Shown here one piece after another: positions 33,774-38,124 of a stretch of 39,981 bases of DNA; within the stretch, counting starts at the first letter, position 1; the number at the start of each line of letters is the position of its first letter. The position numbers were made by a program, and so were the translations under genes. A model generated the notes under the pieces. It saw nothing but the letters and a program-made list of their open reading frames with translations, was not told where the DNA came from and made no database searches. The DNA comes from Flavobacteriales bacterium (GTDB taxonomy: Bacteria > Bacteroidota > Bacteroidia > Flavobacteriales_D > Sanyastnellaceae), in the NCBI GenBank assembly GCA_002862785.1, contig PKDZ01000056.1, positions 1 through 39,981 of the forward strand, given 5' to 3'.

Positions 33774-36380
33774 ATGGAGGAGCAACACAAGACGAGCCCA
33801 CAGGAAGCCCCGGAGGCCCAGCGGACTGCCCGGAGGGGCTGGCGTTGGGTGCTGGCGTTGGCGCTGGTTCTGCTCGTTGCGTTTTCTGCCGGCATGGCGT
33901 GGATGTCGAGGGGGTTGGAGGCTCGGGTCATCGAGGCGGTCCGTCCGCATTTGGCCACGGATGTTGCGGTGGGATCGGTGTCCCTGTCGCTGTGGTCCGC
34001 ATGGCCGGACGTGGAGGTCATCCTCCAGGACGTGCGGGTAGAGGACGCCATCGAGCGGGGACAGGACTTCGTGCAGTTGAAGGAGCTGGGGTTCCGCATG
34101 GGGTGGTGGCCCTTGCTGGAGGACCGTCTGGACGTCCGAGCGCTTCGGCTTCAAGGGGGACGCTTGCGTGTTCACCGCACCCGCTCCGGACAGGAGAACT
34201 GGGTGTTCTGGACGGCTGGATTGGGAGAGTCCGAGGGTCTCGAAAGCTGGAGCATTGAACGGTTCATGCTGCGGGATGTGGAATTGGAAGGGGAATGGAA
34301 TGGGGAAGGGGAACCGGTTTCTTGGTCCGGCATGGTGTCGGTTGCCAACATGGCCCTCACGTCATTGGAGGAAGGGATTGAGTGGCAAGGTGAGGCCAAT
34401 GTGCAGCGGCTGTTGCTGGAGACAGGGGACGACCGGTGGTTGGATGGCCGAACGGTCCGGTGCGTCCTCGATGGTCGCTTGGAAGGAGGCGACGTGCGGA
34501 TGAACCTGACGGAGGCCGCACTGGGTGACGGACGGATCGAGGTGCCGCTTTCGGGGCAATTGACGTCGGATGTTGACGGCTTCAGCTTGGCGTTGACGTC
34601 GGAGCGGTATGCTGTGTCGGCGGCGAAAGCCACACTGCCTCCAGCTGTGTATGCCTCATTGGAGCCTGTGTTGCGCGGAATGGAGGGGCAGGTGGCATTG
34701 GACGTGGAGATTGGTCGTCTTCCAGAAAGCCGCCATTGGACCGGTCCCGAGGACGGAGATTGGAATGGCGAGTGGGCCGCACGGGTGGAGCCGAAGGGCT
34801 TGACCCGTGCCGAGGAGGCGGGTCGGATCGATTGGACCGCAGGACGACTCGAGGCGTTCAGTGTGGCCAAAGGGTGGAGGGCCAATGCCCCCGCTTTGGC
34901 CTTGTCGTTGGCCGGCGGAGAGTTCGCCGGCGGCGCAGAGGCCCGGGAAACAGAGGGAAGAGTGGAGTTGGTGGTGCAAGGCCGAGGGGTGTTTCGCCCG
35001 GCGGGCCTTTGGTCGTGGTTGCCCATTCCGGCGGATGCGCCTTGGACCGCTTTGGAGGTACAAGCTGGTGGCCGCATCAATGTTAACGGATCGGTTGACC
35101 TGACGTTCGAGGATGGCACCTTGACCTCGTGGGCGGCGGCCCCGGAGTCTCAGATTTTGGTGACCGGATTGGCGGTGAACCAGGCGGAAAGCGCCCTTGG
35201 TTTGGACCGATTTGTCGCTCAGACGGACCCCGGAGGGACAGGGTGGAATGGGCGATTGGAAGGGGTGACGTTGCCTGGGGCATCAGGAGATTTGGAGGCC
35301 GCGTGGACGGGGGAAGAAGGCCGTGTGAACGTGGCCTTGGACCGTGTGGATGTGGATGCGGTGCTCCCTGTCGTTCAACCATGGATCGAAGGGCCGGAGG
35401 GAGAAGCGGGTGCGCTGGGCGGCGTGTGGGCCGTAGAGGTGCAAACGGGGCCCTTGACGCAGGGCGACCTGGAGCTGGACCAGATGGCGTTGCAAGCAGA
35501 ATGGCGTGGAGGAGAGTTGGAGATCAAATCGTTGGATGCTGCAGGAATGGGGGGCAGGGTCGAGGCGACCGGGAAGATCAATGGTCGGCTTGCCCGATTC
35601 GACGGGGCCCTGATGGATGCCGATTTGGCGCAGGTGCTCGAAGGAACTTCCGGATTGGGTCAGGAGACCCTGCTGCCGCGCCATGTGAGGGGACGGGTCT
35701 GGGCCGAAGGCACGGTGTCTTACGAGTTTGATCGGCAGGGAACCCCGCCGTGGGATTCAGATGTCCGTGTTCGGATGGAACAACTGGAGCTCATCGGGTT
35801 CGAGTTACTGCAGGAGATTCCCGAGGTGCTCGAATCCGAGAGGAAGTACCGCCTCATTGCTGACGCCCAGGATTTGAGGCGTCGGTTGAAGCGGGTTCGC
35901 TTCGAGCCAGTGGATGCGCAGGTGGAGTTGGAACGCGGATTGATCACGCTGGCCCCCGCGGAGGTTCGGTCCGATGCGATGGACGTCGGGGTGAAAGGAT
36001 GGTACCGCATGGAGGGACCGATGGATTTCACCTTGGACTTTGCCCTGCGGGACCTGAAGTCGGGAGAGGGCGAATTCGGGCCGATGGAAGAGGATGGCCT
36101 CGGCCACCGGTTCTTCCTGGCCATTGGGGGAACACTGGAGAACCCGAAATTCGGGTATGACCGTCGGGCGCACCAAGAGCACCGACGCGAAGAGCGTCAG
36201 GGGGCGTGGGACCGGTTGCGCGGCGCCATCACGGGAGACTCGGTGCCACCAGAGGAGGAGCCGTCTGGTTCTCTGGATGCAGGGACATCGACCATCCCCA
36301 TGGTGACGGAAGGGCCGGAACCGCAACCGGACGCCGCTAAGAAGCCGCCTTCCGTGCTGGACGACGACGACGATTGGTGA
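33774..36380 (+). CDS. AsmA-family envelope protein
   Basis: An 868-residue protein with one N-terminal transmembrane helix (about residues 22-43) and a long periplasmic part. The AsmA pattern is seen just after the helix (SRGLEARVIEAV, then VAVGSVSLSLWSAWPDVEV) and in the C-terminal half (DMDVGVKGWYRMEGPMDFTLDF-like segments at about 720-760). AsmA-like proteins are thought to form lipid-conducting grooves between the membranes. The C-terminus is highly charged and proline-rich and ends DDDDDW. It is divergent from the SOD gene. An AATCTTTG element at 33753-33760 resembles a -7 box. Confidence 0.85.
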   Translation: MEEQHKTSPQEAPEAQRTARRGWRWVLALALVLLVAFSAGMAWMSRGLEARVIEAVRPHLATDVAVGSVSLSLWSAWPDVEVILQDVRVEDAIERGQDFVQLKELGFRMGWWPLLEDRLDVRALRLQGGRLRVHRTRSGQENWVFWTAGLGESEGLESWSIERFMLRDVELEGEWNGEGEPVSWSGMVSVANMALTSLEEGIEWQGEANVQRLLLETGDDRWLDGRTVRCVLDGRLEGGDVRMNLTEAALGDGRIEVPLSGQLTSDVDGFSLALTSERYAVSAAKATLPPAVYASLEPVLRGMEGQVALDVEIGRLPESRHWTGPEDGDWNGEWAARVEPKGLTRAEEAGRIDWTAGRLEAFSVAKGWRANAPALALSLAGGEFAGGAEARETEGRVELVVQGRGVFRPAGLWSWLPIPADAPWTALEVQAGGRINVNGSVDLTFEDGTLTSWAAAPESQILVTGLAVNQAESALGLDRFVAQTDPGGTGWNGRLEGVTLPGASGDLEAAWTGEEGRVNVALDRVDVDAVLPVVQPWIEGPEGEAGALGGVWAVEVQTGPLTQGDLELDQMALQAEWRGGELEIKSLDAAGMGGRVEATGKINGRLARFDGALMDADLAQVLEGTSGLGQETLLPRHVRGRVWAEGTVSYEFDRQGTPPWDSDVRVRMEQLELIGFELLQEIPEVLESERKYRLIADAQDLRRRLKRVRFEPVDAQVELERGLITLAPAEVRSDAMDVGVKGWYRMEGPMDFTLDFALRDLKSGEGEFGPMEEDGLGHRFFLAIGGTLENPKFGYDRRAHQEHRREERQGAWDRLRGAITGDSVPPEEEPSGSLDAGTSTIPMVTEGPEPQPDAAKKPPSVLDDDDDW

Positions 36381-36401: not shown

Positions 36402-36429
36402 TTGATGTATCGACAAGCGTTAATATTTG
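36402..36429 (+). promoter_or_regulatory. Promoter of the candidate small RNA
   Basis: TTG (36402-36404), a 17-base gap and AATATTTG (36422-36429) fit TTG-N17-23-TAnnTTTG with one mismatch. The predicted start is near 36436, directly before the first hairpin. A second, weaker candidate, TATATTGA, lies at 36431-36438. Confidence 0.5.
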
Positions 36430-36435
36430 GTATAT

Positions 36436-36533
36436 TGAACCCCCCGCCGCGAAATGAACCTCGCCGGGGAGCTTAACCAAATTGACTTGGGACCTCCCAA
36501 GGGTGAAGACGTCGGCTTTGAGCCGGCGTTTTT
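36436..36533 (+). ncRNA. Candidate three-hairpin small RNA or leader attenuator
   Basis: About 98 bases folding into three consecutive hairpins. Hairpin 1 pairs 36442-36446 with 36465-36469 and 36449-36452 with 36461-36464, with a two-base bulge. Hairpin 2 is a perfect seven-base-pair stem (36486-36492 with 36495-36501). Hairpin 3 is an intrinsic terminator. A promoter-like sequence lies just upstream. This layout is that of a free small RNA, but the kinase gene begins 98 bases downstream, so a leader with premature termination is the alternative. It does not resemble 6S, SRP, RNase P or tmRNA. Confidence 0.5.
36510..36533 (+). terminator. Intrinsic terminator upstream of the second kinase gene
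   Basis: An eight-base-pair stem (36510-36517 with 36521-36528, one G-T pair) with a three-base loop, followed by five T (36529-36533). It stands 98 bases before a start codon and 130 after the AsmA stop, so it ends a short separate transcript or readthrough from AsmA. Confidence 0.78.
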
Positions 36534-36588
36534 GCATTTCGAGCCCAACGGAGACGGGGACTCGTGTCGGGTCCAGAGTGGGCCTGCA

Positions 36589-36596
36589 TACCTTTT
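36589..36596 (+). promoter_or_regulatory. -7-like element of the second kinase gene
   Basis: TACCTTTT matches TAnnTTTG in all but the last position and lies 34 bases before the ATG at 36631 and downstream of the terminator, so the kinase could have its own promoter. No TTG at the proper distance was found. Confidence 0.4.
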
Positions 36597-36630: not shown

Positions 36631-38124
36631 ATGGCCCTCCGCAACAAGCAGACTTCCCGCATTGTCCTCCTTCTCGGGGCGACGGCCATCGTGACGTTGA
36701 CCCTGTGGTCCAGCGGACGCATCGCGCGCACGCTCCGGGCGGAGGAGCAACGGAAGGTGGAGTTGTGGTCGGAAGCCATCGTCCAACGGGCGGAGCTGGT
36801 CCGGTACACGGATGCCCTCTTCGCCTCGCTGAGGACGGAGGAGCGGGACAAGGCCGACTTGATGGGCGAGGCCTACCGGATCATCCAGGAGGCTGAGCCG
36901 GGCGCCCCCATTGACCTGACCTTCATCACCCGCTTCATCCAGGGAAACCGGACGATTCCTGTGCTCGTCTACAAGGATGGCAAGCTTCAGGCGGACATCC
37001 ATGTGCCGGAGCCGTTGCGGACCCCGGAACGTCTCGACTCGATGCGGGTCACCCTCGAGGCCAAAGGGTCGGTGATCGAGTTCGAAGAGGGCCTCATGGT
37101 CTACTACGACCAGAGCAACCGGTTCCGGGAATTGCGCTCGGTGATGGACGACATCATCCACTCCTTCATCTCGGAGACGGTGATCAATTCGGCGTCGATT
37201 CCGGTGCTGTTGGCCGACTCCTCGCTCCAACGTGTGCTGCAGGCGGACCGCTTCGCTGAGGCCGACCTCGCGGACACGACGGCGCTCATCCAGCGGTTGG
37301 CCGCGACCAACCCACCGATTGCGCTGGATCTGCCGGAGACGGGTCGTCGCTGGATCCTCTACGATGAGTCCATTGTGCTGAAGCAGCTCCGGTTCTTTCC
37401 GGTCGTCCAGTTGTTGATCATCGGGGGCTTTTTGCTGCTCGCCTATTCGACGTTCAGTGCCTTTCGCCGGTCGGAGCAGAACCGGGTTTGGGTCGGCATG
37501 GCCAAGGAGACGGCCCATCAGCTTGGCACACCGCTGTCGGCCCTCTTGGCCTGGGTCGAGGTGCTGCGTGGCGAGGGGGTTTCCGAAGAGGTACTGGGTG
37601 AACTCGGCAAGGATTTGGATCGCTTGAGGACCGTCACCGACCGCTTCTCCAAGATTGGTTCTGACCCGGAGTTGGGGGTGGACAATCTGGGCGCCTTTGT
37701 CACCGAAACGATGGGCTATCTCGGGCGCCGCATGCCGCGCGCGGTGACCTTCCAAGTGGCGGTGCCGGACGTTGCGGTGTCTGTGGCCTACAACCCCGCT
37801 CTGTTTGGATGGGTACTCGAAAACCTGACCAAGAATGCGGTGGACGCCATGGAAGGATCCGGTTCGCTTGGGGTCACTTTGACCGTCGAACAAGGAAAGG
37901 CCCAATTGGATGTGGAGGACAACGGAAAGGGCATGCCGCGCCGAATTCAACGGCAGATTTTTGACCCCGGCTTCAGTACGAAGGCCCGCGGGTGGGGGCT
38001 GGGTCTGAGCTTGGTCAAGCGCATTGTCAAGGAATACCACGGTGGGCAGATCGTCATTCACCGGAGCGAGGAAGGGGTTGGCACCACCTTCCGGGTCACC
38101 CTTCCGGTGGATTCCGGCAGTTGA
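36631..38124 (+). CDS. Membrane sensor histidine kinase, orphan
   Basis: A 497-residue kinase: transmembrane helix 1 (about 10-28), a periplasmic or extracytoplasmic sensor domain of about 230 residues, transmembrane helix 2 (about 258-276), and directly after it the phosphoacceptor segment with His296 in ETAHQLGTPLSALLAW. The ATPase domain has LENLTKNAVDAM, VEDNGKGMP and GFSTKARGWGLGLSLV. The AHQLGTPLS and RGWGLGLSL forms mark a Bacteroidota-specific subgroup; no HAMP domain is seen. No response regulator is adjacent, and the sensed signal is unknown. tRNA-Leu follows on the same strand. Confidence 0.92.
   Translation: MALRNKQTSRIVLLLGATAIVTLTLWSSGRIARTLRAEEQRKVELWSEAIVQRAELVRYTDALFASLRTEERDKADLMGEAYRIIQEAEPGAPIDLTFITRFIQGNRTIPVLVYKDGKLQADIHVPEPLRTPERLDSMRVTLEAKGSVIEFEEGLMVYYDQSNRFRELRSVMDDIIHSFISETVINSASIPVLLADSSLQRVLQADRFAEADLADTTALIQRLAATNPPIALDLPETGRRWILYDESIVLKQLRFFPVVQLLIIGGFLLLAYSTFSAFRRSEQNRVWVGMAKETAHQLGTPLSALLAWVEVLRGEGVSEEVLGELGKDLDRLRTVTDRFSKIGSDPELGVDNLGAFVTETMGYLGRRMPRAVTFQVAVPDVAVSVAYNPALFGWVLENLTKNAVDAMEGSGSLGVTLTVEQGKAQLDVEDNGKGMPRRIQRQIFDPGFSTKARGWGLGLSLVKRIVKEYHGGQIVIHRSEEGVGTTFRVTLPVDSGS

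Follow-up and report, generated by a model that had tools for sequence, protein, structure and literature searches.

A conserved RNA behind asmA in a Flavobacteriales genus carries an exposed anti-seed and is a candidate sponge for sRNA-like elements that share one seed

Introduction

An uncultured member of the Flavobacteriales has a structured stretch between an asmA-like gene and a gene for a sensor histidine kinase. Does it encode a leader through which termination would control the kinase, or a free small RNA, and with what would such an RNA pair? The locus lies within a window of 39,981 nucleotides, by which we mean the whole stretch of DNA that was analyzed (contig PKDZ01000056.1, forward strand). 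The host genome, G000, comprises 2.4 Mb and is 98.5% complete; among the named relatives found, MAG contigs (UBA1995, for example) come closest. An earlier note on this DNA, made from the letters and their open reading frames, had described a structured RNA at 36402-36540 that it could not match to a common RNA and that it suggested might be either a free small RNA or a leader of the kinase gene. Most known sponges of small RNAs (sRNAs) come from Pseudomonadota that possess Hfq or ProQ.

Results

A structured RNA is conserved between asmA and a histidine kinase gene

The features of the locus, with the evidence for each in brackets, are as follows.

33774..36380, + strand: asmA-like gene, 868 aa (open reading frame and Pfam AsmA, E 2.8e-12); the RNA lies 3' of this gene
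36419..36427, + strand: GTTAATATT, conserved element just 5' of the -7 box (alignment)
36431..36437, + strand: TATATTG, -7-type promoter box (alignment of relatives)
36442..36469, + strand: hairpin 1 (folds and covariation)
36442-36446/36465-36469, + strand: outer stem of hairpin 1, followed by a 2-nt bulge
36449-36452/36461-36464, + strand: inner stem of hairpin 1, closing a loop with UGAA
36471..36484, + strand: GCUUAACCAAAUUG, unpaired 14-mer anti-seed, complement of UUUGGUUAAG in other sRNA-like elements
36486..36501, + strand: hairpin 2, CUUGGG/CCCAAG (folds; varies among relatives)
36506..36533, + strand: hairpin 3 with U-run, an intrinsic terminator (folds and covariation)
36589..36596, + strand: TACCTTTT, which may be the kinase gene's own promoter box (TA[CT]NTT box in relatives)
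36631..38124, + strand: sensor histidine kinase, 497 aa (open reading frame and Pfam HATPase_c, E 2.1e-23)

The + strand of the stretch folds with an energy of -53.8 kcal/mol (z -3.97), which none of 200 shuffles matched (0/200). The - strand of the same stretch likewise outdid 200/200 shuffles (z -3.63), and therefore folding alone gives no direction. We confirmed that the structured element of three hairpins and a U-run is real, which we judge from its conservation in all 17 genomes of the genus and from changes on both sides of base pairs in all four helices. A search with a covariance model of the RNA, R1, located it between asmA and the kinase gene in 17/17 genus genomes (E 1e-16 to 3e-7), always next to the kinase gene, with asmA sharing the contig. 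The training set of R1 did not include G011, the 17th genome. Two rows of the 17-row alignment are identical, which by their equal scores are G011 and G016, and G011 is therefore a copy of a training sequence that provides no independent test of the model.

Sixteen genomes align over the promoter element, hairpin 1, the anti-seed, hairpin 2 and the terminator. Using a structure written from the folds, we found that 20 of the 26 pairs had changed on both sides in these genomes, and none of 500 shuffles of the sequence-only alignment reached the real covariation on any of five measures. Paired cells made up 81.6% of this alignment, a share that fell to 37-48% when the partner strand was slid. 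A model-fitted alignment of 17 rows, which leans to the structure, gave 87.2% paired cells; on one of the five measures, 10/500 shuffles did as well. Changes on both sides affected 11/12 pairs of hairpin 1 and 4/4 pairs of hairpin 2 (helix 3), so that the covariance check on the aligned intergenic region that had been proposed for this locus came out in favor of an RNA; the terminator stem (helix 4) is paired in 99.4% of cells. The stems of hairpin 1 are paired in only 67% of cells in the sequence-only alignment because the stem register shifts among relatives, and in 76-80% of cells in the model-fitted one. Between hairpins 1 and 2, CUUAACCA.AU (in DNA, CTTAACCA.AT) is invariant in 16/16 genomes and is the sole long invariant unpaired stretch of the RNA in this alignment, with a median unpaired probability of the anti-seed of 0.83 over the 16 genomes. 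This core, which is complementary to other sRNA-like elements, had been left out of the earlier reading of the locus.

Rfam returned no match to the RNA at the gathering threshold. At E up to 10, the sole match listed was sroD (RF00370), which scored 14.2 bits (E 3.6) against a gathering score of 50 bits, fitted mainly via the terminator and is at chance level. The 6S-Flavo model (RF01685) matched nothing in the window and 0/60 genomes, although control genomes gave no match either, and a search of a plasmid collection returned no match. Together with the covarying stems and the conservation throughout the genus, the lack of an Rfam match bears out the description of an undescribed structured RNA and supports the suggestion that it may be a free small RNA.

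The RNA is predicted to have its own promoter and to end at the terminator

Promoters of the Bacteroidota type carry TAnnTTTG near -7. At the RNA, TA[TC][AC]TT occupies the position of the -7 box in 16/16 aligned genomes, and GTTAATATT is exact in 14/16, with one mismatch in L015 and more in L012, while no clear -33 box was seen at this promoter. A sigma-70 scan, whose object is not the Bacteroidota promoter type, found no promoter at the RNA, and the list from a generic terminator scan does not contain its U-run terminator. With the start placed from the -7 box, the transcript is likely to span ~36443-36533, or about 90 nt, and 36402-36430 is therefore probably promoter region rather than RNA. 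The promoter-like sequence and the three hairpins ending in a U-run terminator, as first described, are all present; of the extent first given, 36402-36540, the part at about 36443-36533 is the likely RNA, and 36402-36430 probably lies outside it. Given the same start, a stem at 36402-36423 and a UAUUUGG/CCAAAUU pairing that ViennaRNA draws probably lie outside the RNA.

The stop codon of asmA lies about 50 nt before the -7 box, a distance that would also suit an element with no transcript of its own. Such an element would be either conserved DNA or nothing more than the asmA terminator. However, hairpins 1 and 2 covary and would be superfluous for an asmA terminator, and the promoter box is conserved, which makes this explanation extremely unlikely.

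The kinase gene is probably not the target of the RNA

The second possibility raised for the locus was control of the kinase by termination, with the RNA as its 5' leader or attenuator. The RNA ends 97 nt before the start of the kinase gene on the same strand and adjoins it in 17/17 genus genomes, as a leader would. A TA[CT]NTT box follows the terminator in 10/16 genomes, 42-51 nt before the kinase match, which speaks against a leader, and its absence from the other 6/16 speaks for one. The terminator stem is almost fully paired, and no competing antiterminator stem was seen in the folds of 16 relatives. A query with the kinase matched 60/60 relatives, with the matches in G047, G048 and G055 probably representing another kinase, as indicated by their weak scores. 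When the DNA upstream of 30 kinase loci was considered, the RNA was present in 16 genomes of the genus and absent from 14 of other genera of the family (L025-L038), where R1 found no match; a kinase that does without the RNA in other genera argues against a leader, which would, moreover, leave the invariant anti-seed unexplained. Separately, two records titled Alphaproteobacteria and Verrucomicrobia (L074 and L105) encode this Bacteroidota-type kinase at about 40% identity and are probably misassigned MAG contigs.

Further evidence against a leader comes from G028, the one genome of genus g13, in which an anti-seed element with a terminator lies directly 3' of an asmA homologue. Another gene start follows this element, the contig ends soon after, and the kinase match is on another contig. 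The hairpins of the element differ from those of the RNA and R1 misses it, so that its kinship is judged from its place and its anti-seed. Because this element lies behind asmA without the kinase, the RNA seems to go with asmA and the kinase link seems to be a matter of the genus, as far as one genome can indicate. No CTTAACCAA was found around or behind asmA in 53 of the 85 asmA-matching genomes outside the genus (L400-L452, one of which is cut to 195 nt). Taken together, these observations make a leader very improbable, and the kinase is probably not the RNA's target.

The complement of the anti-seed is shared by several types of sRNA-like elements

In G000, UUUGGUUAAG occurs at six sites, which are the RNA read backwards and five sRNA-like elements of four types. 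We searched the 17 genus genomes for exact sites of TTTGGTTAAG, the complement of the anti-seed core, and found 94 sites, of which 15 are the RNA itself and 79 are others. The RNAs of G002 and G004 are not among the 15 because they carry CTTAACCAGAT. Sixty-five of the 79 other sites are sRNA-like elements, and the remaining 14 look like chance occurrences. The 65 elements fall into types X (19), Z (16), W (13), Y (10), Y2 (3), Y3 (2) and V (2), with at least one seed element in each of the 17 genomes. In every sRNA-like element, the seed UUUGGUUAAG sits directly 5' of a terminator-like hairpin, which nearly always has an AACG loop; many of the U-runs are short or broken, and V has none. The seed is constant among these elements by construction, because they were found by the exact seed word. 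The five elements of G000, the genome in which their place was read, lie between genes, and Rfam gave no match for four partner loci.

The reversed control word of TTTGGTTAAG occurs at 71 sites over the 17 genomes and at none in G000, and the 8-mer TTAACCAA occurs at 8 sites in G000 versus 30 for its control word; GC-rich genomes contain little TA, which makes such a control imperfect. The eight TTAACCAA sites are the five seed elements, the RNA, one further sRNA-like element and the end of one suhB-like gene.

Several elements have features of their own. Type X forms a tandem pair in several genomes, which in G000 lies between genes that we named by eye as glutamate dehydrogenase and methylmalonyl-CoA epimerase. 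At this locus (L182, G000:C42, 1983-2434), two tandem X elements stand behind the glutamate dehydrogenase-like gene, and a third, weaker match to R2, a model of the seed and hairpin used with a threshold of E up to 1e-3, covers 1983-2034. A type Y element at ~1490-1640 of L187 (G000:C1:16500-19500) is preceded by TTGGCACG-N4-TTGC, which we take to resemble a sigma-54 (-24/-12) promoter; the Y copies in L192 and L198 keep TTGGCACG, with an incomplete -12 part. A sigma-54-driven sRNA in Bacteroidota would merit a look. Near 34397 of G000:C4 (L378), an sRNA-like stretch carries UUUUGGUUAAA, with a terminator-like AACG-loop hairpin about 45 nt further on. Type Z, at 1233-1322 of L188 (G000:C3), consists of UUUAAGUGAG, a variable hairpin, GCAUCAAGUGAUAAUUUGGUUAAG and a terminator (alignment A5). 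The alignment behind the type Z model, R3, holds 21 sequences from three genera that were picked by an exact 20-mer containing the seed, so that the constancy of the seed within it is also by construction. Type Z is possibly a strong sRNA family of its own, without an Rfam match.

Seed elements appear to reach wider than the RNA

Matches to R2 were found in 91/114 genomes of the family and in 19/21 genera; at the weak end, some of these matches may be mere AACG-loop terminators. R3 matched 64/399 genomes of the order, all in one family and in 7/70 genera, including 14/17 genomes of this genus; 6 of the 7 genera with type Z have no convincing R1 match to the RNA. Elsewhere in the family (97 genomes), R1 with stricter filters found nothing better than E 1.1e-3, and of 13 loci read among its matches outside the genus (best E 1.1e-3), most fit via the terminator and were set aside. 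From these distributions of R2 and R3 versus R1, the partners appear to reach wider than the RNA within these searches.

In two loci of genus g3, L141 and L142, TTAACCAAACG precedes a strong terminator at another place in the genome. The conserved stretch reads CACTTAACCAAACG in L141 and CATTTAACCAAACG in L142, and similar DNA occurs in 3/11 genomes, with no TTAACC in the third locus, L151. An independent anti-seed RNA at another place is possible for L141 and L142.

The anti-seed is predicted to pair with the seeds

In predicted duplexes, the anti-seed makes 14 pairs with X, of which one is G-U; 14 with Z, of which two are G-U; 12 with Y, again with one G-U; and 10 with W. When duplex energies were calculated without opening costs, shuffles did as well in 18/300 cases for X1, 17/300 for X2, 39/300 for Y, 15/300 for W and 0/300 for Z. 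These energies separated Z alone from shuffles and were replaced by a scan with opening costs, which covered all 13-nt windows. In G000, the seed and anti-seed formed the best site for 5/5 partners, with totals of -8.1 to -12.3 kcal/mol. We shuffled the RNA against X2, Y, Z and W. With X2, Y and Z, all 60 shuffles fell short of the real pair; with W, the best of them (-9.0) beat it (-8.1). Across 16 genomes, the seed and anti-seed formed the best site, with both ends within 6 nt, in 54/63 pairs, which are the 65 elements less two, of which one contains an N and the other comes from G011: X 18/19, Y 9/9, Y2 3/3, Y3 2/2, Z 14/16, W 7/12 and V 1/2. Median unpaired probabilities of the seed range from 0.37 for Z, where it is partly paired in its own fold, to 0.71 for Y2. 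No compensatory change was seen between seed and anti-seed; in G002 and G004, an A-to-G change in the anti-seed leaves a G-U pair.

The RNA therefore has, by sequence and prediction, the mark of a sponge-type RNA, which is a conserved, unpaired stretch that complements a sequence common to other sRNA-like elements. Because the exposed stretch is the exact complement of a stretch common to these elements, we consider it most likely, with a probability of about two in three, that the RNA is a free sRNA and works as a sponge, or anti-seed RNA, on sRNAs with a common seed, rather than as a switch of the kinase. Conservation, covariation, the shared seed, complementarity and predicted accessibility are all read from the sequences themselves, which cannot tell which RNA regulates which. 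As a sponge, the RNA would be made from its own predicted promoter, and hairpin 1, hairpin 2 and the terminator would hold out the unpaired GCUUAACCAAAUUG. This stretch would form a duplex of 10-14 nt with UUUGGUUAAG and the bases around it in at least four otherwise dissimilar types (X, Y, Z and W), which would be blocked or destabilized whenever the RNA is made. For this scheme we infer that the RNA and its partners are transcribed, that they pair in the cell and that the partners are thereby titrated or decay, rather than themselves regulating the RNA.

Hairpin, unpaired conserved stretch, hairpin and terminator are also the typical build of an ordinary trans-acting sRNA, in which CUUAACCAAAUU would be a seed for mRNAs and the sRNA-like elements would be decoys or a by-product. 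However, G000 has no mRNA with the exact complementary 10-mer, and among its genes the 8-mer is found at a single gene end. Moreover, the seed types occur in genera where the RNA was not found and are thus unlikely to have arisen as its decoys. We therefore regard an ordinary trans-acting sRNA as unlikely. A protein could also account for the conservation, if the core were its binding site or if the seed marked RNAs for a common RNA-binding protein, as might fit a common ligand given the AACG-loop hairpin of nearly all seed elements. The complementarity would then be a coincidence, yet a perfect complement of at least 10 nt to the stretch of four types is roughly a one-in-a-million event per register (4^10), which renders this explanation highly unlikely.

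The seed may also precede secreted-protein genes

For the sRNAs that we propose as partners of the sponge, we considered possible mRNA targets. In 24 genomes of other genera, CTTAACCAAAT occurs at 66 sites, of which 59 were read and the other 7 coincide with R2 or R3 matches. Among sites not flagged as terminators, an open reading frame starts within 40 nt in 14/50 versus 7/50 on the other strand, a weakly supported difference given that the flag missed some seed elements. Six sites resemble 5' UTRs by eye, 3-31 nt before start codons, and for five of these the protein looks secreted by eye; G000 has no 5' UTR site of this type. Because six sites precede starts, five of them of secreted-looking proteins, as with FopS on susC, these weak statistics suggest that the seed may serve to repress mRNAs of secreted proteins.

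Discussion

We propose that the RNA behind asmA is a sponge for sRNAs with a common seed. The closest parallel is QrrX of Vibrio cholerae, which is described as a sponge RNA for Qrr1-4 (PMC9732341). As described there, QrrX is an independent RNA, as predicted here, with a conserved stretch complementary to a sequence shared by several sRNAs; the stretch with which Qrr1-4 pair is their shared target-pairing sequence; and QrrX likewise has a conserved promoter element and is limited to some species (PMC9732341). Unlike QrrX as it appears in that account, the RNA belongs to another phylum, would have at least four dissimilar types of partner with the seed and a terminator-like hairpin in common, and is known from sequence alone.

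In Bacteroides, FopS is described as repressing susC mRNAs, and FopS/GibS as multicopy Bacteroidota sRNAs that share one seed (PMC11697453). FopS/GibS would thus be analogues of partners X to W and not of the RNA. By the same description, FopS uses its 5' end for pairing, and the protein RbpB counteracts it (PMC11697453), whereas here the seed adjoins the terminator and an RNA is the candidate for the role of antagonist. In a literature search on RNA sponges and on Bacteroides or Bacteroidetes sRNAs, no Bacteroidota sponge was named in the titles or the opening parts of the abstracts.

A broader reading, which we offer as tentative and consider doubtful, is a family-wide network of RNA acting on RNA. 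Dissimilar sRNA types would carry a common seed that abuts the terminator. In one genus, and perhaps in a second, a master anti-seed RNA would have been placed behind asmA, the sole exact complement of the 10-nt seed found in the genome, so that the word would be a private code between sRNAs. If the sponge reading is true, this locus adds a candidate sponge for Bacteroidota and a set of candidate partners that sequence alone defines, and it would also yield the sRNA-like type Z, which spans 7 genera and has no Rfam match.
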